In this document: one piece after another, positions 3,596 through 64,000 of the stretch
How the letters are laid out: the number at the start of each line of letters is the position of its first letter
Numbering within the stretch: the first letter of the stretch is position 1
IMG/VR virus record: IMGVR_UViG_3300036945_000814
Span: 43,026 to 107,025 of that record
Reading direction: 5' to 3' (one strand)
Length of the DNA stretch: 64,000 nt
Source: a virus
The notes under the pieces: generated by a model
The model's database searches: none
What the model saw: the letters and a program-made list of their open reading frames with translations, nothing else
Told to the model about the DNA's origin: nothing
Program-made: the position numbers and the translations under genes

Positions 3596-3632
3596 GTCTC
3601 ACGGTTGACACTACGAATGGAGCGCCTACAAT
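3596..3632 (+). promoter_or_regulatory. Early-type promoter P1, TTGACA-N16-TACAAT
   Basis: GTCTCA at 3596-3601, TTGACA at 3605-3610, a 16-base spacer, then TACAAT at 3627-3632. The arrangement matches three other promoters in the window (57075-57111 minus, 57268-57304, 63566-63602). An ATG at 3640 begins 7 bases after the -10, where transcription should start, so a transcript from here would be leaderless. Confidence 0.75.
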
Positions 3633-6600
3633 GGTTCGCATGACCACACACGACACCATCGAAGACGCTTCCTTCGGTTTGCTGCTCAAGGCCGACATCG
3701 ACGACGCCCTCGACGATCTCGAAAAGGCTTTCGGGTCGGAGCGGGCCGGCCACAAGTACAGCTCCCGCCGACGCAACGCGAAAGGCGAGTGGGAGTACGA
3801 GTACGCCACCGACAAGACGAAGGCGCACGCGCAAATGGCGTTCACCTTCGCCGCGGCGCACGGCACCCCCGAGCAGCAGGATCGCGCCCTCGACGTGCTC
3901 AAGCGCGTCGAGCCGGACAGGTGGCCCGACCACGTCCACGCGGCCAACGTCGCGCACGAGGCCGCGGTCATCCACGCGGCGAACGTCGCCCACGAAGCGG
4001 CCGCCCGACCCCTGCCACCATCGCCAGCGCACGAGCACAGCCCCCCGGCCGCCGCCGCGCCCCCTGCCGTCGTGAGGTTCACGCAGGGCGAGCCCAAGCC
4101 CGCCGTCGCCGCGGCCCGTGCGCTGGATGCCTCCCGTGCGAGCCTGATCCGCGCTGGCATCGGCCTGCGCGCCAACGCAGAAGAGAAGACCCCTATCGAG
4201 GCCGTGGCCGGCCGCGCGGCCGCGCTTCGCAGCTCCGCCTCGTCGCTTTTCAATGAGTCGATCCGCATGGGCATCGTGAACGACGACCCGCGCACCGCGC
4301 GGAAGTTCACGGCCGAGGAACATCGGGCGCTGGCCGCCGCGCACACCGCCCTCTTCGACGAGTTCCGCGAGCTGTACGCGCGCTCGATGACGATGCGCAT
4401 TCGCCCGCCCTCCGGCATGACCGCCGCCGACGCCGATGCGCTCCGCTCCCAGCTCGAACGCGACTTCAAGGGGCACGCCAAGCTCGCTCAAGCCCACAAC
4501 GACGCCGCCAACGCGGCGTCGGGCAAGCCCGCACCCGCGGCCGCTGTGCCGCTCGTGGTCGCGCCTGTGGCGACTTCGGTCGCTCCGGCGCTGGACGCCG
4601 GCCCGGTGCAGCTCATGGACGCCGCCGCCCGCCTCATCGCCGAGCGTGCGAGCGGCGCGCCGCCGGCGTTCAAGGCCGTCGACAACAACCGCGTCACCAT
4701 CGGTGGCGTCAAGATGATCGTGCAGGGTGGCTTCCTCGGCGACGCTCCCGCGCACCGCGCGTGGGCGGAGACGGCCGGCACGTTCTCGGCCGACGCGCAG
4801 CACTTCGACGGCGGCCGGGCCTACCGCGTCGCCACCGAGGCGGAGCGTGTGGCCGCCGTGGCGATGATCCCGCGTCTCCGCGGCTCCGTGAACGTCAACG
4901 CGCCCGCACCGGCCCCTGCCCCGGCGCCCGTCGTCGCCGAGCCCGTGCGCCCCGTCGACGACTTCACCGGCGCGTTCAGGGCGCTGAGTGACGGCAGCGG
5001 CGCCGAAGAGATCGTGACGCTCCCGTCGGGATCCAAGATCGGGCTGTCCTACGTCAGCGGACAGGCCAAGGCGCGCCCCGTCGGAGGCGGCATCGGCCGC
5101 AAATGGGATGCGACCGCGACGAAGCGCGCCCTCGCCGCCTTCGAGGCCAAGGTCGCCGCCCTCGGCCCCGCGTGGCACGCCGCCCACAACGCCATGTACG
5201 GCGTCGCCGCCGCCCCGACGCCGCTCGTGGTGGCGCCCGTGGAGACGGCCGCGCCGAAGCGCAAGCGCGCCAACAACTTCGAGACGATGCCCGACGGCGA
5301 CAGGCCCAACAACTTCGACACGATGCCCGAGGAGATCAAAGACCCGTCGCCGCGCGCCACAAAGATCCGAGAAAACCGCGAAGCTCGCGAAGCCGAAGCC
5401 GCGTTGGAAGCCGGAGCCGAGCGACTGACGGGCGAAGAACGCCACGCCGCCCTGACCCGCATGGGCCAACACTTGCACGAGGTGCAGGACTTCCGGGCCG
5501 GCAAAGACGACACGGGCATGAGCGGCGCCGACATGCTGACGTGGCGCCGATCGACCACCGCACCCCGCAAGGCCAGCGTCCTCCGCAAGTACCGCCGCCA
5601 GCTCGTCGAGAGTTTCGGCGACCTCTACTTCAAGGCCGGGCTGCACGAGAAGGAGCCGATCCCCAAGGGGCACGTTCCTGCCGTCGGCGAATGGACCGAG
5701 CGCGGCGGGCTCGTCATCAAGGCCGACGGCTACCTCGGGACGAAGTTCAACGCATGGAAGAACCTGCTCAAAGAGCACGGCTTTCGCTGGAATGGATCAC
5801 GCGGCGACGAAAGCGCCGACGGGATGCACGCAGAGAAGGCGGCGCTGCTCGACATCCCCGGCTTCATCGAGGCGGCGAACAAGATCGGGATCCATGTCGA
5901 GATCCCCGAGAAGCCCGAGGTCGCCCTCGATGCGCCAGCGGCGGCCAACGAGCCCGAGGCGCCCCTGCCCACGCCCGAGCGGCCGTCGGCGGATCGCCCG
6001 ACGACCACCGAGGACACGCAGCGGGTCATCAACGCCATTCGCGCCAAGCAGGGCCAGCGCGGCACCGTCGCCGTCACCGTGAAGCCCGACGGCAAGTTTG
6101 CTTTCTACGCCGTCGACTACCGCAAGACCGAGGTGCCCGGCTCGTTCAACCACATCATGTCGAACAAGAACGGGCAGATCACCGGGCTCATGGAGGTCGA
6201 CTCCAAGGACGCTTTCTCGCGCACCACCTACGACGCCGCCCTCGTGACCGAGGCGCTTGGCAAGCTCCGCGACGCCAACCCGACCTTCCATTTCTACATC
6301 GACCCGAAGGCCGCCGCCGCCATCGACAAGGCCGGCGCCGACAAGGCCGCAGCCGAGAAGCCGATCCCAGAAGTCGAGGCCCTGCTTGCCGACGGCTTCG
6401 CGCTCAAGCCCTACCAGAACGCGATGGTGCGGTTCCTCGACAGCAACGACGGCAACGCCATCGTCGGCGACGAAATGGGCCTTGGCAAGACGCTGCAATC
6501 GCTCGCGTGGGTGGCGAAGAACAACAAGAAGGCCATCGTCGTCGTCCCCAAGGTCGTGCGCCGCACTTGGATCGAAGAGGCGCACAAGTTTTTCCCCGGA

Positions 6601-7962
6601 CACTTCAACGCGAAAGAGCTGCGATCCAAGGATCTGCTCACGAAGAAGAAGGCCAAGGCCGGCAAGGCCGACGCCGGCGGCCTCTCGTTCATCGACGAGC
6701 TGATGGCAACCGACAGCCCGATGGATCTCACGGGCAAGAACCTCGTGACGGTCAACTACGAGTCGCTTGAGAAGTTCATGCCCTACCTCAAGGCCGCCGG
6801 GTTCGACACGATCATCGTCGACGAATCGCACCGCGCGAAGAACCCGAAGGCGAAGACGACGCAGGTGATCCAAGCCATCGCGAAGACGATGAAGCATCGC
6901 ATCCTCATGTCCGGCACCGCGGTCAAGAACGGCAAGGATGAGCTTTTCACGCAGCTCGAAATGGTGAAGCCCGGCCTGTGGGGCTCGGCGAAGGAGATCA
7001 AGTTTTCCACGCATGGCGCTGCGTGGAACAAGATGCGGGACCACTACCTCGCGCGATCCAAGAAGAACGTGCTCAAGGATCTCCCCGAGAAGACGACCAC
7101 GATCAGCCTGCTCTACGCCCCCGGCGCGCCGGACATCGGCAAGATGAAAGAGCCGACGCCGCCACCGGCGAACGCCACCGCGAAGCAGATTGCGGCCTAC
7201 GAAAAGGCCGCCGAAGAGTGGGAATCGTGGATGGAAGGGGCCGCCGACGGCGACGGCATCAACGAGGACATCGGCGATCTCATGGACGGCGGGTCGTCGA
7301 TCGGCGAGTACAGCCGCGTCCGCGGCCAGCTCGCGCTGGCGAAGGTCGACGGCACCGTCGACATGGTGCAGGAGATCCTTGATAGCTCCGACAGCAAGGT
7401 GCTCGTGTTCACCGAGTCGGTTGCCGCGGCGAAAGCCATCGCCGAAAAGCTCGGCAGCGAGGCGATCCTGCACTACGGGCAGCAGAGCGACGACAAGCGC
7501 GAAGACGCGAAGAAGGAGTTTCAGCGCGAGGGATCCCCCAAGCGCGTGTTCGTCTCGACCCGCCCGTCGCTGGCCGTCGGCGCCACGCTCACGGCCGCCG
7601 ACAAGGTCGTGTTCAACGACCTCCCGTGGACGGCCGCCGACGTGCGCCAAGCCGAGGACCGCGCGCACCGCGTGGGCCAGAAGAACGCCGTCAACGTCTA
7701 CTGGAACGTCGCCGAGGACAACAAGTTCGACGAGAACGTCTCCGCCATCCTCCGCCGGAAGTACGACCTCTCGAAGAAGATCAACGAGGGGCAGCAGCTT
7801 TCGCCCGAAGAAAAGGCGTGGATGAGCAAGCCCGTCACCATGCGCGAAGTCATGGATCGCATCAAGGGCAAGCCCTCCGGCCCGCCCGAGCCCAAGATCG
7901 AAAAGAGCGCCAAGGCGCAGCTCCGCGACATGACCCGCGCGCTGATCAAAGCGGCAAGCTAG
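3631..7962 (+). CDS. SNF2-family helicase fused to a polyvalent-type N-terminus
   Basis: This 1443-residue protein starts with a GHKY module, then Ala/Pro-rich linkers and two PNNFxTMP motifs near residues 546-566. The C-terminal third is a complete SF2/SNF2 ATPase: Walker A GDEMGLGKT near 947, DESH box near 1063, SGT motif III, and QAEDRAHRVGQ near 1345, the SNF2 motif VI. SNF2 proteins translocate on duplex DNA and remodel protein-DNA complexes, so a role in clearing or protecting injected DNA is plausible. Two starts compete: ATG 3631 with GGAG at 3619-3622 for read-through mRNA, and ATG 3640 for leaderless mRNA from P1. It sits between two other polyvalent-type genes. Confidence 0.85.
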   Translation: MVRMTTHDTIEDASFGLLLKADIDDALDDLEKAFGSERAGHKYSSRRRNAKGEWEYEYATDKTKAHAQMAFTFAAAHGTPEQQDRALDVLKRVEPDRWPDHVHAANVAHEAAVIHAANVAHEAAARPLPPSPAHEHSPPAAAAPPAVVRFTQGEPKPAVAAARALDASRASLIRAGIGLRANAEEKTPIEAVAGRAAALRSSASSLFNESIRMGIVNDDPRTARKFTAEEHRALAAAHTALFDEFRELYARSMTMRIRPPSGMTAADADALRSQLERDFKGHAKLAQAHNDAANAASGKPAPAAAVPLVVAPVATSVAPALDAGPVQLMDAAARLIAERASGAPPAFKAVDNNRVTIGGVKMIVQGGFLGDAPAHRAWAETAGTFSADAQHFDGGRAYRVATEAERVAAVAMIPRLRGSVNVNAPAPAPAPAPVVAEPVRPVDDFTGAFRALSDGSGAEEIVTLPSGSKIGLSYVSGQAKARPVGGGIGRKWDATATKRALAAFEAKVAALGPAWHAAHNAMYGVAAAPTPLVVAPVETAAPKRKRANNFETMPDGDRPNNFDTMPEEIKDPSPRATKIRENREAREAEAALEAGAERLTGEERHAALTRMGQHLHEVQDFRAGKDDTGMSGADMLTWRRSTTAPRKASVLRKYRRQLVESFGDLYFKAGLHEKEPIPKGHVPAVGEWTERGGLVIKADGYLGTKFNAWKNLLKEHGFRWNGSRGDESADGMHAEKAALLDIPGFIEAANKIGIHVEIPEKPEVALDAPAAANEPEAPLPTPERPSADRPTTTEDTQRVINAIRAKQGQRGTVAVTVKPDGKFAFYAVDYRKTEVPGSFNHIMSNKNGQITGLMEVDSKDAFSRTTYDAALVTEALGKLRDANPTFHFYIDPKAAAAIDKAGADKAAAEKPIPEVEALLADGFALKPYQNAMVRFLDSNDGNAIVGDEMGLGKTLQSLAWVAKNNKKAIVVVPKVVRRTWIEEAHKFFPGHFNAKELRSKDLLTKKKAKAGKADAGGLSFIDELMATDSPMDLTGKNLVTVNYESLEKFMPYLKAAGFDTIIVDESHRAKNPKAKTTQVIQAIAKTMKHRILMSGTAVKNGKDELFTQLEMVKPGLWGSAKEIKFSTHGAAWNKMRDHYLARSKKNVLKDLPEKTTTISLLYAPGAPDIGKMKEPTPPPANATAKQIAAYEKAAEEWESWMEGAADGDGINEDIGDLMDGGSSIGEYSRVRGQLALAKVDGTVDMVQEILDSSDSKVLVFTESVAAAKAIAEKLGSEAILHYGQQSDDKREDAKKEFQREGSPKRVFVSTRPSLAVGATLTAADKVVFNDLPWTAADVRQAEDRAHRVGQKNAVNVYWNVAEDNKFDENVSAILRRKYDLSKKINEGQQLSPEEKAWMSKPVTMREVMDRIKGKPSGPPEPKIEKSAKAQLRDMTRALIKAAS

Positions 7963-56842: not shown

Positions 56843-57067
56843 CTAGAGGAAGCGGACAGTCGCGACGGCGCCGGTGACGAAGGCGCCGCCGAAGTGGCCG
56901 GTGAGCCCGATCGTGACCTCGGCTGACTTACCGACGGTGGCGAAAACGAGGTCGTGAGCAGCCCGGATGACCGCAACGCGCGCCGCTTCCACGTCGGGCG
57001 CCGTCGCCGTGAAGTAGACGGTGCTGCCGAAGTCGGCGACGTGAACGGCGGGGGCGGTGTGGTTCAT
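56843..57067 (-). CDS. Small early protein, leaderless start
   Basis: Two in-frame ATGs exist. The one at 57076 lies inside the -10 hexamer and cannot be transcribed from that promoter, so 57067 is chosen, 7 bases after the -10. The 74-residue product (FGSTVYFTATAPDVEAARVA) is a small alpha/beta protein of unknown function and leads the leftward operon. Confidence 0.6.
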   Translation of the reverse strand: MNHTAPAVHVADFGSTVYFTATAPDVEAARVAVIRAAHDLVFATVGKSAEVTIGLTGHFGGAFVTGAVATVRFL

Positions 57068-57074
57068 GCGCTCC

Positions 57075-57111
57075 ATTCTACAGATCGCATTTGTAGTGTC
57101 AAGCGTGAGAC
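57075..57111 (-). promoter_or_regulatory. Early-type promoter P2 (leftward)
   Basis: On the minus strand, GTCTCA (57111-57106), TTGACA (57102-57097), a 16-base spacer and TAGAAT (57080-57075) precede the ATG at 57067 by 7 bases. The layout matches the other three promoters of this set, so the mRNA should be leaderless. Confidence 0.8.
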
Positions 57112-57267
57112 TGAAAATAAATGGATCGGCGCCGCGGATCTGCGCAAATGCTTGGATCTTCGGATGATCTTTCGAGATCCATCGGCGTGTCGCGTTTGGA
57201 TCTTTCGAGGCTGATCCTCCTGATCTGTCGTAAATGTGCGGATCTGCGCAGATCCGCATTATTTTGC
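57112..57267. promoter_or_regulatory. GATC-rich divergent control region, possible origin
   Basis: No gene lies here. About ten GATC sites occur within 57123-57255. A perfect 22-bp palindrome spans 57237-57258, with core GCGGATCTGCGCAGATCCGC. GATCTTTCGAG occurs twice as a direct repeat, and a partial palindrome copy (GCGGATCTGCGCA) lies near 57135. The region is AT-richer than the surroundings and separates divergent promoters. It could bind a repressor or replication initiator. Confidence 0.55.
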
Positions 57268-57304
57268 GTCTCATGCTTGACACCGGAAACGAAGCGCGTA
57301 TGAT
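57268..57304 (+). promoter_or_regulatory. Early-type promoter P3 (rightward)
   Basis: GTCTCA (57268), TTGACA (57277-57282), a 16-base spacer and TATGAT (57299-57304). Unlike the others, the gene start used is ATG 57345 with AGGAG upstream, leaving a leader of roughly 35 bases. Confidence 0.8.
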
Positions 57305-57344
57305 GGTTCTCACGGCACTACCGCCGCAGCACAGGAGCCCGCCA

Positions 57345-57854
57345 ATGACGACCACCACCGCTTCCGTCTCTGCCCGCCGCGCCGCCATCGCCCGCGAGAA
57401 CGCCCGCGCCGACGCCTACCTCGCGAGCGTCGAGAACCAGACCAACCGCTTCATCAAGGCCATCGTCGAGGCCGCCAAGCTGACCGAAGAGAACACGCCC
57501 GTCGTCGGCGGCGGCGCCAACGTCTACGGCTACTCCGACGTCATGGCTCACACCGTGATCTCGGTGAACAAGACCGGCACCGTCGCCATCATCCAGCGCG
57601 ACACCGCGACCCTGCTCAACGGTCACGGCTCGGACGCCGCGGACAAGCTGTCGTTCGAGCCCGGCGGCTTCTGCGGCCACACCTCGGGCCGGCAGCGTTA
57701 CAGCTACGAGCGCAATCCCAACGGCGAAACGCTGCGCATCACCCTCCGCGCCAAGGGCCAGCACGCCGGCACATGGCGCACCAAGGGCGCTGGCACCGGC
57801 GCCGCCCGCGTCCGCTTCGGCACCCGCTCCGAGCACTGCGACTTCAACTTCTGA
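57345..57854 (+). CDS. Early protein, unknown
   Basis: The start is ATG 57345 behind ACAGGAG; an in-frame ATG at 57303 overlaps the -10 and is rejected. The 169-residue product has an N-terminal helix (ARRAAIARENARADAYLASV) and a C-terminal mixed region ending GTRSEHCDFNF. It is the first rightward gene from the GATC-rich region and is probably expressed early. No family recognised. Confidence 0.55.
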   Translation: MTTTTASVSARRAAIARENARADAYLASVENQTNRFIKAIVEAAKLTEENTPVVGGGANVYGYSDVMAHTVISVNKTGTVAIIQRDTATLLNGHGSDAADKLSFEPGGFCGHTSGRQRYSYERNPNGETLRITLRAKGQHAGTWRTKGAGTGAARVRFGTRSEHCDFNF

Positions 57855-58501: not shown

Positions 58502-58821
58502 GGCCGGGCTGCATCATCGCGACAGGGCGGCGATAGGTACTTGCGGGATAGGGATCCGCCCGGCGCGCAACCGCCATTGATCAAGCCCCCGCACAGACCG
58601 CACCAAGCCGATCCAAAACCGCCACCCCTGACTCACCCATCGCCCCCGCCTTTGGGGGTTGGGGGTCGCACCTCGCTTCACGATCGTTACACGTCGATCC
58701 AACCTGTAAGGATCATAAACGTCTACTGTCGTTTTTCTTGGATCTTGGAACGGCGCTGGCGGTGTTTGTGGCGAAGCGCCACAAACACGCAGAAGCTCGC
58801 TTCGCTCGCTTCGGAGGATTC
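58502..58821. other. Intergenic region with hairpins before the helicase gene
   Basis: No convincing gene is seen in these 320 bases. It holds G/C runs (CCCCC and GGGGG near 58656-58670), a short AAACG/CGTTT hairpin with a T tract near 58719-58740, and the perfect hairpin at 58762-58788. No copy of the early promoter motif is present. Confidence 0.5.
58762..58788 (+). repeat. Perfect 12-bp hairpin in the helicase leader
   Basis: GTGTTTGTGGCG (58762-58773) pairs exactly with 58777-58788 around AAG. It ends 24 bases before the ribosome site GGAGG (58813-58817) of the helicase. No T tract follows, so regulation of translation or mRNA stability is more likely than termination. Confidence 0.85.
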
Positions 58822-60282
58822 TTGGACCCGCAGATCCGCATCGTCATGGAGAACAGCTCGGCGCGAATCGTCTTCGCGCCGCCAGCGTTGATCCAGCTCT
58901 TGCGCTACGACCTCTCGTACCTCGCCACCGAGGCGTTCACGCCGTCGGACGACGACGGCTGGGACGGCTGGATCAGGCTTATGGACGCAACCGGCTTCAT
59001 GCCAGCGGGCCTCGTGCCGACCGTGCGGCGCCTGCTCGCCAAGTACCAGATCCCCTACGCCTTCAACGATGCTCGGGAGCGCCCCGACGACGATCTGCCG
59101 CTGCACAGCGGCTTCCAGCTCCGCGACTACCAGCGCCACCTTGTCGACCGCGCCTTGAGCATGGGCCGCGGCGTGCTCGACTCCCCGCCGCGCAGCGGCA
59201 AGACGCTCATGGGCGCGGCCATCATCGACGCGAACCCGCTACACACGCTTTGGATCGCGCCTACCAAGGGCATCGTCGCGCAGACGACCCGCGCGCTCGG
59301 CAAGCTCGCGCTCGGCCCCCGTGGCGTCGTCGGCCTCACCGGAGGCTGGCCGAAGACGGCCACCGTGCCCGGCAAGCGGCGATCCGACGAGCTGCACGAC
59401 ACGCGCGTGGTCGTGACGACGGCGGCGACGGCCGTCAAGGCGCCTGAGAGTTTCTACCGATCGCGCAAGATCCTCGTCGTCGACGAGTTTCACCACGCCG
59501 CCGCGTCGACGTACCAAGAGATCAACAAGCGGGCGTCGCCGATCTACTACCGCTACGGCATGACCGGGACGCACTTCCGCAGCGACGAGAACAGCGAGAT
59601 CCTGATGGACGCGGTGCTGTCCGACGTGATCGGGCGCGTCGAGGTCAAGCAGCTCATCGACCTCGGCTTCCTCGCCCCCGTCGACTTCGTCTTCGTCCCC
59701 GTCGAGGAGCCGAAGCTCGGCCCTTGTGCCCTCGACACGGCCTACCGCATGGGCATCGTGAACCATGAGCGCCGAAACCAATGGGCCGCGTGGGCGGCGC
59801 AGACGCTCATGGCGATGGGCAAGCGGGTCATCGTCCTCGTCAAGCACGTCGCGCACGGCGCCAAGCTGGCAGGGATGATCCCCGGCGCGCAGTTTGTGCA
59901 GGGCGCCGGCGGCAGCGGCGACGACACCGTCACCGACGAAGAGGTCGAAGCGAAGATCCACGACTTCAACGCCGGTGCCTGCCCGTGCCTCGTCGGGACG
60001 TCGGTGCTTGGCGAGGGCATCGACCTCCCGGCGGCCGACGCCCTCGTCTACGCCAAGGGCGGCTCGGCGGCCGTCACCGTCACGCAAGACGTGTTTCGCG
60101 TGCTCACGGCGAGCCCCGGAAAGGCGCGCGCCATCGTCGTCGACTTCGCCGATCGGCACCACGACGGGCTCATCGCGCAGTCGGCGAACCGGGGCAGGAT
60201 CTACTCGCGCGAGGATTCATTTTCGGTGGACGTGCTCGGGCAGCCGATGGATCTCGTCGCGTGGCTCGCCCGCCGGCAATGA
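58822..60282 (+). CDS. SF2 DNA helicase (UvsW/DEAD-like)
   Basis: TTG 58822 with GGAGG four bases upstream is preferred; ATG 58846 lacks a ribosome site. The 486-residue protein has a QLRDYQRHLV Q-type motif, Walker A SPPRSGKT (about 121-128), DEFH (about 220-223), MTGTHF motif III, and GTSVLGEGIDLPAADALVYA plus VTQDVFRVLTASPGKARAIV for motifs V and VI. It is probably involved in replication initiation, branch migration or recombination. Confidence 0.8.
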   Translation: MDPQIRIVMENSSARIVFAPPALIQLLRYDLSYLATEAFTPSDDDGWDGWIRLMDATGFMPAGLVPTVRRLLAKYQIPYAFNDARERPDDDLPLHSGFQLRDYQRHLVDRALSMGRGVLDSPPRSGKTLMGAAIIDANPLHTLWIAPTKGIVAQTTRALGKLALGPRGVVGLTGGWPKTATVPGKRRSDELHDTRVVVTTAATAVKAPESFYRSRKILVVDEFHHAAASTYQEINKRASPIYYRYGMTGTHFRSDENSEILMDAVLSDVIGRVEVKQLIDLGFLAPVDFVFVPVEEPKLGPCALDTAYRMGIVNHERRNQWAAWAAQTLMAMGKRVIVLVKHVAHGAKLAGMIPGAQFVQGAGGSGDDTVTDEEVEAKIHDFNAGACPCLVGTSVLGEGIDLPAADALVYAKGGSAAVTVTQDVFRVLTASPGKARAIVVDFADRHHDGLIAQSANRGRIYSREDSFSVDVLGQPMDLVAWLARRQ

Positions 60283-60428: not shown

Positions 60429-61091
60429 ATGAAAGCCAAGCCCAAGCCCAAAAAGGCGAAGAGGGCTCCCGCGCCGCGGTGGACGCTGGCCGCGTGCCCC
60501 GTGGATGCCCCGGCCCGCGAGCTGTGGCGGCCGGAGTGGCGCGATCACGCCACGAGCCTGCTCGTGGCCTACAACGCCGGCCTGCTCAACAACCCGACCC
60601 GTCGGCGCGTGGCAGACGCCGGCCACGTCTCGGTCACGCTCTCCAGCTCGGAGGACGTGCTTGAGGCCCTGTACGCGGTGAGGGTGTGGGCGAAGGCGCA
60701 GGGGGTCGAGCCCGTGGCGTGGGTCCGGTGGAATGGCCGCCGGGTGCGCACGGCCGACAGCGCCGTCGCGCGTCTGCTCCATCTTTTCGACACCGAGCGC
60801 GTGGTGGCGTACCGCTCGGACGCCATGACGAGCGTCAACGAAGCCGACGCGCAGGATGCGGCCCTACACGCTCGTCTCGGGGCGAGCGGGTTCGTTCCGG
60901 GCCGGGATCTGCACGCTGGCGCCGAGCTGGCGAAGCTCCATTTCCTCGATCGAGGCCGCGAGATCCTTTGTCTCGATGCCCACGACATCACTTTTGGGTT
61001 CCACGCCGCGTCCCCCTCGTGTTTGAGGTGTTCGTTGCGCGACCGTTGCAAGGCTGAGACGACGTTTCGTCTCGGAAAGAACCGCCCGTGA
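60429..61091 (+). CDS. Basic Cys-cluster protein next to replication helicase, unknown
   Basis: ATG 60429 is chosen; the upstream part of the frame is inside the terminator. The 220-residue product has a Lys/Pro-rich N-terminus (MKAKPKPKKAKRAPAPRWTL), a central alpha/beta region and CLRCSLRDRC near the C-terminus, a metal- or Fe-S-binding type pattern. It is translationally coupled to the DnaB-like gene (GTGA overlap), suggesting a replication accessory. No family recognised. Confidence 0.55.
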   Translation: MKAKPKPKKAKRAPAPRWTLAACPVDAPARELWRPEWRDHATSLLVAYNAGLLNNPTRRRVADAGHVSVTLSSSEDVLEALYAVRVWAKAQGVEPVAWVRWNGRRVRTADSAVARLLHLFDTERVVAYRSDAMTSVNEADAQDAALHARLGASGFVPGRDLHAGAELAKLHFLDRGREILCLDAHDITFGFHAASPSCLRCSLRDRCKAETTFRLGKNRP

Positions 61092-62461
61092 GCTACCAGC
61101 TTGGCCCGGAGTACCAGCGTGCGCTTCTCCGCTTGTGCCTCGACAACGAGGCTTTCGCGGTGCTCGCCGCGCGGCACCTCAAGCCGGCGTTCTTCGAGAC
61201 GCCGGCCCTGTCGTGGATCTTCTCGACGGTGCAATGGTACCTGTCGACCTACGCGCGGCCGCCGACGGCGCTCGTTGTGCTCGACGCTTGTCGACGTCTC
61301 GACCCGCAGCTCGCCGCGCAGTATTTCCCGACTGTCGAGGGCGTGTGCCTGTCCGTCGTCGTCGAGGAAAAGTACATCGGCGACAAGCTCGTCGAGTTCA
61401 TCAAGCGCAACCTCGTCGTCGACGGCGTCGAGAAACTGCGGCTGCTCTACAACGGCGGCGACGTCGATGCCACGGTCGACTTTTTCCAACAGCGCGCGGA
61501 CGAGATCCAACAAGTAAACGTCGGCGCCGTCGACCGCAGCTTTTTCTTCGAGGAGATTGAGCAGCGCACGGCGCGTCGTCAGCGCGAGGCCGCGCAGGGC
61601 CACCTCTACACGTTCTCGACGGGCGTGCCCGACCTCGACGCCGTGCTCAACGGCGGCTTGAGCAAGGGCGAGCTTGGGATCTGGGTGGCCTACCCGAAGG
61701 TGGGCAAGTCGCACATGCTGCAATGGCTGGCCTACTACGCCGTGCGCGCGCTTCGGATCCCCGTGCTCTACGTCGTCCTCGAAGGCGGCCGGGAGCAGGC
61801 CGAGGACCGTTTCGAGGCGGCTTTCACCTACTCGACGGCAATGGATCTCAAGCACGGCGTCGTCGACGTGAACCGCATGAAGGCGATTCGCGACGAGTAC
61901 CGCGAGCTGAAAGACCTCCTCGTCATCCGCGGCTACACCAAAGACGCAGCGTGGAACGCGAGCGTCAACGACGTCTACGCCGAGATCGTGGACCTTCGCC
62001 AGCGTCGAGGATTCCGCCCGCGGCTCATCGTGATCGACTACGGCGACCTCCTGCACCCTCGCGAGAAGCAAGAGAACGAGGTGCGCTCGCAGGCGGCGGC
62101 GTTCCGCGACATGAAGGCCCTGTGCGACCGTGACGAGGGCTACGCCTTGTGGACGGCTTCGCAGGCGCAGCGGCCAACCAAGGGCGCCGCCGACAACGTC
62201 GACCACATCGTGCGCAGCTCGCAGATCGCCGACTGCTACGAGAAGGTCCGTTGCGCCGACTTCATTGGATCGCTGAATCGCACGAGCGAGGAAGCGCGCA
62301 CCGAGAAAATGCGGATCTTCGCCGAGCTGTACCGCTCGGCGCCGGCGGGCCGGCTGATCGAGGTCCGTACCGACTTCGCCCACCACCGCGCAGTCACGAC
62401 GACGCTGCGCTCGACGCAGTTTGAGGCGGCACATGAGCAGGAGCAGCTTGAGGCATGGTGA
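61088..62461 (+). CDS. DnaB-like replicative helicase
   Basis: The start is GTG 61088; 457 residues. The N-terminal 150 residues resemble a DnaB N-domain. The RecA-like core has a Walker A AYPKVGKS (about 201-208), FSTGVPDLDAVLNGGLSKGE before it, LYVVLEGG, LIVIDYGD as Walker B (about 312-319) and WTASQAQRPTKG. It unwinds the fork as a hexamer. The glycine-poor Walker A is slightly unusual. The primase gene overlaps its 3' end. Confidence 0.75.
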   Translation: MSYQLGPEYQRALLRLCLDNEAFAVLAARHLKPAFFETPALSWIFSTVQWYLSTYARPPTALVVLDACRRLDPQLAAQYFPTVEGVCLSVVVEEKYIGDKLVEFIKRNLVVDGVEKLRLLYNGGDVDATVDFFQQRADEIQQVNVGAVDRSFFFEEIEQRTARRQREAAQGHLYTFSTGVPDLDAVLNGGLSKGELGIWVAYPKVGKSHMLQWLAYYAVRALRIPVLYVVLEGGREQAEDRFEAAFTYSTAMDLKHGVVDVNRMKAIRDEYRELKDLLVIRGYTKDAAWNASVNDVYAEIVDLRQRRGFRPRLIVIDYGDLLHPREKQENEVRSQAAAFRDMKALCDRDEGYALWTASQAQRPTKGAADNVDHIVRSSQIADCYEKVRCADFIGSLNRTSEEARTEKMRIFAELYRSAPAGRLIEVRTDFAHHRAVTTTLRSTQFEAAHEQEQLEAW

Positions 62462-63506
62462 CGACGCCGACTTCGCCCTCGCGCTGTCGAAGTTTCCTCT
62501 CGTGCCGTGGCTTGTGCGGCACGGCTTCGTCGCGCAAGGCCGGGCGAAGCTGGAGTGGCTGCACGACTGCCCGTGGTGCGGCGGCGAAGACAAGCTGTCG
62601 GTGAATCCGTCGCGGAAGTTCTGGCGCTGCTTCGTGTGCGCCAAGCAGTTTCAGCTCTTGGATCTGCTCGCGGCGTTCGACGGCGGCCACGCCGCTGCCG
62701 CCGAGATCGTGCGGGCCTCGTCAGGCGGCCGGTCGCTCACGCTCATCCCCGAGGACTACCTTGAGGCGGCGGCGCCGTCGCGGCCGTCGACGTGGGAGCC
62801 GGAGCCCATCGCGCCGCCGGAGAGTTTTGCGCCGCTGCACGCCCACATCGAGTACACCGCGCGCCGCGGGCTCGACCTCGACAACATGCGCCGGCTCGGC
62901 GTGGGCGTGTGCTCGTGGGGGCGCTATCAGGATCGGCTCGTGTTCCCCGTCCGCCGGTGGGATGGACATTGGATCTACTTCCAGTCCCGCGCGACGTGGG
63001 AGAAGCGCGACCACGACGAGCTGACGAGCGGCAAGTACCGCAAGAACCTCAACCCGGCCAACGACAACCCGCTCCGCTTCGCGTCGGCGGGCGACGTGGT
63101 GCTCGGCTTGGAGCTGGCCTCCGCCTACCAGCGCATCGCCATCGTCGAGGGGCCGACGGACTGGATCCAGAGCGGACCCGACGCCGTGGCCCTCTTCGGC
63201 AAGGCGCTGTCCGATCGCCAGATCATGCTTCTGGCGCGCGCTGGCGTGCGTGAGGTCGACGTGTGCCTCGACCCCGACGCATGGGAGCGCCCGACCATGA
63301 AAGACCGGGCAGGGCACGTCGTGATCCTCGACAAGCCCCCGCCGGCGAAGCTCGTGGCCGACCGGCTCGCGCAGCATTTTGTCGTGCGTGTCGTGCGTTA
63401 TGCCGATGGAATGGATCCCGGCGCGCACACCCCGGTCGAGAACCACGCCATGCGGGCGACGGCCGAGCTGTGGGGCAACGGATCCAGACTGGCGCAGATC
63501 CCGTAG
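62433..63506 (+). CDS. DNA primase (zinc ribbon and Toprim)
   Basis: ATG 62433 is the first ATG of the frame and overlaps the helicase gene by 29 bases; TTG 62421 is an alternative. The 357-residue protein has a CPWC and CFVC zinc ribbon (about residues 47-70) and a DnaG-like Toprim core with IAIVEGPTDW (about 235) and DVCLDPDAW (about 277). It would make RNA primers alongside the DnaB-like helicase. Confidence 0.8.
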   Translation: MSRSSLRHGDDADFALALSKFPLVPWLVRHGFVAQGRAKLEWLHDCPWCGGEDKLSVNPSRKFWRCFVCAKQFQLLDLLAAFDGGHAAAAEIVRASSGGRSLTLIPEDYLEAAAPSRPSTWEPEPIAPPESFAPLHAHIEYTARRGLDLDNMRRLGVGVCSWGRYQDRLVFPVRRWDGHWIYFQSRATWEKRDHDELTSGKYRKNLNPANDNPLRFASAGDVVLGLELASAYQRIAIVEGPTDWIQSGPDAVALFGKALSDRQIMLLARAGVREVDVCLDPDAWERPTMKDRAGHVVILDKPPPAKLVADRLAQHFVVRVVRYADGMDPGAHTPVENHAMRATAELWGNGSRLAQIP

Positions 63507-63522
63507 CAGATCCATGCAAGGT

Positions 63523-63542
63523 GGCGGATCTGCGAGAGATCC
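63523..63542. promoter_or_regulatory. GATC-containing imperfect palindrome upstream of P4
   Basis: The sequence GGCGGATCTGCGAGAGATCC resembles the 57237-57258 palindrome (GCGGATCTGCG...GATCC). It lies 32 bases before the P4 -35, within a 65-base stretch holding five GATC sites, and may bind the same regulator. Confidence 0.5.
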
Positions 63543-63565
63543 AATGAATCGCCATGCCGCGCACA

Positions 63566-63602
63566 GTCTCATGCTTGACACCATAAACGCGGCGTGTAGA
63601 AT
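63566..63602 (+). promoter_or_regulatory. Early-type promoter P4
   Basis: GTCTCA (63566), TTGACA (63575-63580), a 16-base spacer and TAGAAT (63597-63602), with the ATG 6 bases later at 63609. This is the closest match to the shared consensus and implies a leaderless mRNA. Confidence 0.8.
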
Positions 63603-63608
63603 GGACTC

Positions 63609-64000
63609 ATGAACACCACCGACCGCACCGCCATCTTCGCCTCCGCCCTCCGCCACCTCGCGGCCAACTTCGGGACCGACCGGGCGTTGACCCTCACCAA
63701 CGACGAGGCAAAGGCGGTCTACGCGCTCCTCTTGGTGCAGCCGGGCGTCGTCGCCGCGTCGGAGGAGCAGGAGGCCGAGATCGAGCGCCAGCGTGTCGCG
63801 CACATCGCCGGCATCAAGGCCGTCACCGAGAAGTCCCTGCCCGCCGGCAGCACGTTCACGGTCACGGCCGAGGGGCAGCTCGACTACAAGAACACGCCGT
63901 GGATGCGCCCTGTCGTCGACGGCGCCGTCTGCACCGTCCGCCGTTACCGGATGCGCTCCAGCAACGGCTGGAAGACGCGCGAGCTGTCTTTCACCTTCAC
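63609..64000 (+). CDS. Early protein, unknown (3' partial)
   Basis: The frame from ATG 63609 is open to the window end. An ATG at 63601 is rejected because it stops after three codons. The visible 130 residues have an N-terminal helical region (TAIFASALRHLAANFGTD, AKAVYALLLVQPGVVAA), a coiled coil and a beta-rich C-terminal part (GSTFTVTAEGQLDYKNTP). No family recognised. It has its own early-type promoter. Confidence 0.55.
   Translation, partial: MNTTDRTAIFASALRHLAANFGTDRALTLTNDEAKAVYALLLVQPGVVAASEEQEAEIERQRVAHIAGIKAVTEKSLPAGSTFTVTAEGQLDYKNTPWMRPVVDGAVCTVRRYRMRSSNGWKTRELSFTF

Follow-up and report, generated by a model that had tools for sequence, protein, structure and literature searches.

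Here, we report that the intergenic gap at positions 57068-57344 is, at a probability of roughly 0.7, the divergent promoter/operator of a regulon that extends through a whole phage genome. The DNA analyzed, i.e., the window, is 64,000 nucleotides long and covers positions 43026-107025 of the 107,025-bp virus record IMGVR_UViG_3300036945_000814, the genome of which is called G000; positions are those of the window unless given as genome positions. The original prediction had offered a candidate origin or master operator at this place. The master operator stands in substance, given a divergent promoter pair, an operator-like array, and a promoter family present at five other places and partly in the relative G003; the origin lacks support. 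As we picture it, host RNA polymerase would read the promoters of this family, a sequence-specific DNA-binding protein would sit on sites with a GATC core that lie shortly before the -35 elements, and the bound protein would set the transcription timing of the linked genes.

G000 is a bacterial virus, a myophage of about 106.6 kb, which codes for a contractile tail sheath, baseplate proteins, and T4-like replication proteins, and its capsid protein has a distant likeness to SPO1-type phage capsids (~34% identity). The first 380 bases of the record recur at its end with 98.9% identity (genome 1-380 and 106649-107025, the latter being window 63624-64000); G000, with a length of about 106.6 kb, is therefore either closed or circularly permuted; its database class, however, is linear. 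Nucleotide comparison against named phages gave zero matches, close or remote, viral contigs scanned for the promoter pattern and for the dyad plus TTGACA pattern gave no occurrence, and protein scans with UvsW, the polymerase, the DnaB-like helicase, and the first-gene product gave distant relatives or nothing. True relatives were recovered by the capsid scan only, and a methyltransferase scan again yielded G003 alone. A Myxococcales MAG carries, at ~2.90 Mb of CP070713.1 (L039), a capsid gene that is 48% identical and one adjoining gene, the rest of the phage being absent. It was considered as the host of G000 and rejected: these two capsid-region genes are all that the two have in common, and the Myxococcales genome has no excess of the word GATCCAW described below.

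The divergent gap and its GATC array

Both strands of the gap carry an outward sigma70-type promoter, i.e., TTGACA and a TATAAT-like hexamer within the 16-18 bp spacing of this class, and each matches 11 of the 12 consensus bases (0.2 expected by chance). The leftward promoter (57075-57102, minus strand) consists of TTGACA at 57102-57097, a 16-bp spacer, and TAGAAT at 57080-57075, with an ATG at 57067 and a transcript predicted to be leaderless; the rightward promoter (57277-57304, plus strand) consists of TTGACA at 57277-57282, again a 16-bp spacer, and TATGAT at 57299-57304. The divergent promoters originally proposed are thus borne out in the sequence, and the early timing that was ascribed to them is putative. 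The first gene of the leftward transcript (56843-57067, minus strand) encodes 74 aa without a family match, and that of the rightward transcript (57345-57854, plus strand) encodes 169 aa belonging to phrog_19789 (unknown function). The replication genes said to adjoin the region are there as well, all to the right of the gap and on the plus strand: a UvsW-like DNA helicase in the rightward cluster (58762-60282), a DnaB-like replicative helicase (61088-62461), and a DNA primase (62433-63506).

Between the two start codons, from 57068 to 57344, there are 11 GATCs, one at 57083 and ten starting in 57124-57251. By site count, these ten form an unstranded array of 131 bp (57124-57254), which is the densest GATC cluster of the 107-kb record; the runner-up 135-bp stretch holds seven. 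Most sites of this array, and of the arrays at the related promoters described below, are GGATCT or AGATCC half-sites, compared with ~22% of GATCs genome-wide (counted from listed contexts). The ten or so sites of the original prediction were therefore correctly seen, and its expectation of 0.5 was too low because G000 itself is GATC-rich: the record has 953 GATCs in 107,025 bp, which gives ~1.2 for the span of the cluster. Among 5000 trials with 953 uniformly placed sites, 0.1% had at least ten sites within a span of this length.

Repeat analysis agreed with the remaining claims on the gap. The 22-bp palindrome at 57237-57258 (TGCGGATCTGC/GCAGATCCGCA, no strand assigned) is perfect, and its 16-bp core, GGATCTGCGCAGATCC, has an exact second copy at genome 23567 and a one-mismatch copy at genome 24557, both upstream of promoters of the same family. 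The direct repeat GATCTTTCGAG is present exactly twice (57166-57209, unstranded), with starts at 57166 and 57199, 33 bp apart. GC content is indeed lower: the intergenic gap has 53% and the array 55%, versus 67% for the genome. An element absent from the original prediction is a 25-bp inverted repeat with 88% identity, the arms of which are the -35 regions of both promoters: the left arm (57096-57120, minus strand) contains a TTATTTT tract, an GTCTCACGC box, and the leftward -35 region, and the right arm (57259-57283, plus strand) contains a TTATTTT tract, an GTCTCATGC box, and the rightward -35 region. A further repeat, GCAGTACGCGCC, was set aside as an unrelated coding repeat. Rfam gave zero matches.

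A promoter family in G000 and in a relative

The two promoters of the gap belong to a family of seven in G000 with a common cassette design, i.e., GTCTCAYGSTTGACAC, a 16-bp spacer, and TANRAT. When G000 was scanned with a matrix derived from the family itself, the seven promoters scored 51-75 bits and the next match 4.9; they are located at genome 18983, 23615, 24593, 46630, 100302, and 106600 on the plus strand and 100127 on the minus strand, and all of them share GTCTCAYG(C/G)TTGACAC. Besides the pair in the gap, there are thus five other places, which the original prediction did not include. One of them is a second full cassette in the window (63480-63602, plus strand), with GATC sites at 63481-63541, an GTCTCATGC box, TTGACA at 63575, and TAGAAT at 63597-63602. 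Another has no GATC array (3596-3632, plus strand; GTCTCACGG, TTGACA at 3605, TACAAT at 3627-3632) and stands before the gene (3640-7962) of a protein of 1440 aa that has an SNF2-type helicase at its C-terminal end. In five of the seven family promoters, the distance between the first T of TTGACA and an ATG is 34-35 nt, which puts the ATG at the predicted start site, so leaderless mRNAs are predicted for these five (window 57075, 63597, and 3627; genome 23637 and 24615). The G003 homologues have leaders.

GATC sites stand upstream of six of the seven promoters, and at four of the five places outside the gap, as would be expected of an operator used by multiple promoters. The array is longest in the gap because two upstream site sets stand back to back there. 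Copies of the dyad GGATCTGYGCAGATCC with zero or one mismatch are confined to the upstream regions of three promoters of the family; with two mismatches there are just two copies, and these precede family promoters too. In the six promoters, the nearest GATC is 25, 25, 26, 33, 37, and 37 bp upstream of the -35 element; a simple simulation gave P ~0.01-0.03 for the phasing at -25, a post hoc value from promoters that are not independent. The spacers of four G000 cassettes are near-identical, and this similarity could stem from recent duplication rather than from constraint.

G003 is a distant relative of 89 kb found via the capsid gene; its capsid protein is 78% identical to that of G000, UvsW is 57-60% identical, and its proteins are ~60% identical to those of G000. 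The three best matrix matches in G003 are upstream of genes whose G000 orthologs also follow a family promoter: the UvsW cluster, the gene after the primase, and the large helicase. Two of them (5213 and 14043) have GATC sites, one exactly 25 bp before the -35 element in each, as in G000 (25, 25, and 26 bp), so an operator-type site is conserved at equivalent promoters; the promoter of the large helicase is without a GATC array in both phages. Three of the six AAGATCCAAG copies of G003 are within the two GATC-bearing promoters. The -10 elements of the G003 promoters are poor. In the gap before the UvsW cluster, G003 keeps the rightward promoter and the GATC sites without the divergent layout, which speaks for a role of the sites at the promoter. 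Given the sites and distances that recur in both phages, the GATCs resemble the half-sites, here AGATCC/GGATCT, at which a transcription regulator would act.

Replication origin, methylation switch, or terminator

An AT-richer and GATC-rich gap may also suggest a phage replication origin, e.g., a transcript-primed (R-loop) one as in T4, in which such origins exist and are located at promoters. The GC of 53%, the repeats, and the neighboring UvsW-like helicase, DnaB-like helicase, and primase are consistent with this. However, GC skew has neither a minimum nor a maximum in the gap, i.e., no inflection at this position, and after detrending the skew has its extremes, which are small, at 78.2 kb and 20.5 kb; a DnaA box within one mismatch is absent from the gap, the best match having two mismatches of nine; the elements recur at other genome loci; and G003 retains promoter and sites without a divergent gap. 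An origin here is therefore quite improbable. GATC-rich control sites are also known from Mu mom and the P1 origin, and in Mu mom in E. coli, GATC methylation alters regulator binding and times the promoter. G000 resembles both in that GATCs are clustered in a phage control region, and methylation by a host or phage methyltransferase could likewise alter regulator binding and time the promoters. Ten GATCs in a putative operator would suit such a switch, as would an orphan N6/N4 DNA methyltransferase of the phage (genome 20472-21341, L010:5672-6541), which lies beside an XRE gene in both phages and is 68% identical in G003. The weak matches of this enzyme (RsrI, CcrM, MboIIA), however, have other targets, and the conserved unit, MGATCCRW, is longer than GATC, a difference from Mu mom and the P1 origin as well; we regard the switch as improbable.

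It might further be argued that the palindrome and the TTATTTT behind it make up an intrinsic terminator insulating the promoter, with the GATC count as a by-product. There is a terminator-like call at 57236-57259 with an RNA hairpin of -15.3 kcal/mol (z -2.9), and a similar dyad plus TATTTT follows the end of the upstream gene at genome 23567 and 24557. Yet the gap is divergent, so that no sense transcript should come from the left, the remaining dyads form weak hairpins (-7.5 kcal/mol), the T-run is absent at genome 106551 and 18942, and G003 keeps the GATC at -25 without a comparable hairpin. A stable hairpin with a T-run is thus not a property of all copies, being strong at 57236-57259 only, and a terminator is the explanation to which we give very little credence.

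Candidate regulator and the dispersed word

For the divergent promoter/operator reading, the best candidate binder is a phage XRE-type protein. Its own gene (genome 20022-20450) is downstream of a family promoter and adjoins the orphan methyltransferase gene in both phages. Its role as the DNA binder of the sites is only a guess. The HTH is the sole confident part of its AlphaFold model, and the recognition helix GVSRAT(I/L)AR is kept in G003 even though the protein is just 36% identical; the matrix scan found no family promoter directly before the G003 gene. The phasing of the nearest sites, 25-26 or 37 bp, leans slightly toward an activator touching polymerase over a looping repressor. At class I activator promoters, CRP sites are located at -61.5/-71.5; the G000 sites are similarly upstream of -35 and helically spaced, at roughly -58 and -70 relative to the predicted start. 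The differences are that the G000 promoters are near-consensus, that they have an additional conserved box, GTCTCAYGC, directly next to the -35 element, and that the activator has candidate standing only.

The core of the sites is also part of a word, MGATCCRW, that is dispersed through the genome. GATCCAA and GATCCAT together occur 154 times in G000 coding DNA versus 21.8 expected from a synonymous-codon shuffle (~7-fold), with the excess in all three reading frames and on both strands, i.e., a strong, frame-independent over-representation as for HIP-like words. G000 has 186 GATCCAW sites, 99 on the plus and 87 on the minus strand, 154 of them inside predicted genes. In both G000 and G003, single-base changes in the GATCC core mostly remove the excess; it is weaker in G003 (50 vs 22 expected). 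L026, a close relative with ~80% DNA identity in the aligned parts, keeps up the word density (28 vs 2.8 expected). The sites themselves seem to turn over: 10-11 of ~22 aligned sites are shared between G000 and L026, many of the others differing by at least two bases, and positional conservation of the dispersed sites in L026 is not significant (11/22 vs 39% for permuted words). Control phages have enriched 7-mers too (z 5.8-8 in ~45 kb), so the z of 19 in ~100 kb of G000 is high but not unique in kind. We rejected the idea that the GATC excess is purely a side effect of avoided restriction palindromes, as GATCCAA is over-represented in frames needing rare codons. As a separate observation, CCWGG is wholly absent from G000 (0 vs 347 expected in genes), and GAGCTC, CCCGGG, CTCGAG, AATT, TTAA, and AGATCT are missing from G000 as well; G003 lacks GAGCTC, CCCGGG, and AATT but has 162 CCWGG.

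Two known systems are close to this picture. The operators and stoperators of mycobacteriophage L5 are more than 20 asymmetric 13-bp sites at promoters and in short intergenic gaps, oriented with transcription (PMC9283540). As in L5, one sequence-specific site is found in G000 at promoters and at many dispersed genome places. In contrast to the asymmetric, transcription-oriented, intergenic stoperators, the G000 core is GATC-based and often dyadic, the dispersed copies are mostly intragenic and divided 99/87 between the strands, and at promoters the arrays are upstream of -35. The HIP1 words of cyanobacteria are linked to orphan methyltransferases (PMC4390886), and in G000, likewise, a word that contains GATC is repeated along the genome, which also encodes an orphan DNA methyltransferase. 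The G000 word differs from HIP1 in being non-palindromic, in a phage, enriched ~7-fold, and concentrated in arrays at promoters.

The dispersed word may be the site of the same protein, a methylation-linked HIP-like word, or something else. A bolder suggestion, which we think rather unlikely but worth stating, is that MGATCCRW would be a lineage-wide mark recognized by a protein or a methylase, with ~190 GATCCAW sites that arise and disappear while their density stays constant and that are concentrated at early promoters. Such a mark would be the phage equivalent of HIP1, with one word linking transcription control and, perhaps, the marking of DNA by the orphan methyltransferase. If the dispersed word is functional, G000 would offer a case, open to testing, in which a phage keeps a short DNA mark genome-wide.

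Taken as a promoter/operator, the gap is a new example of an ordinary kind of system, the dispersed word being the odd part. The regulon gives a transcription logic for a lineage of uncultured phages to which none of the named phage records searched is closely related: a single cassette would mark the points at which the control genes of the phage are switched on, and it may be used for reading the genomes of its relatives.
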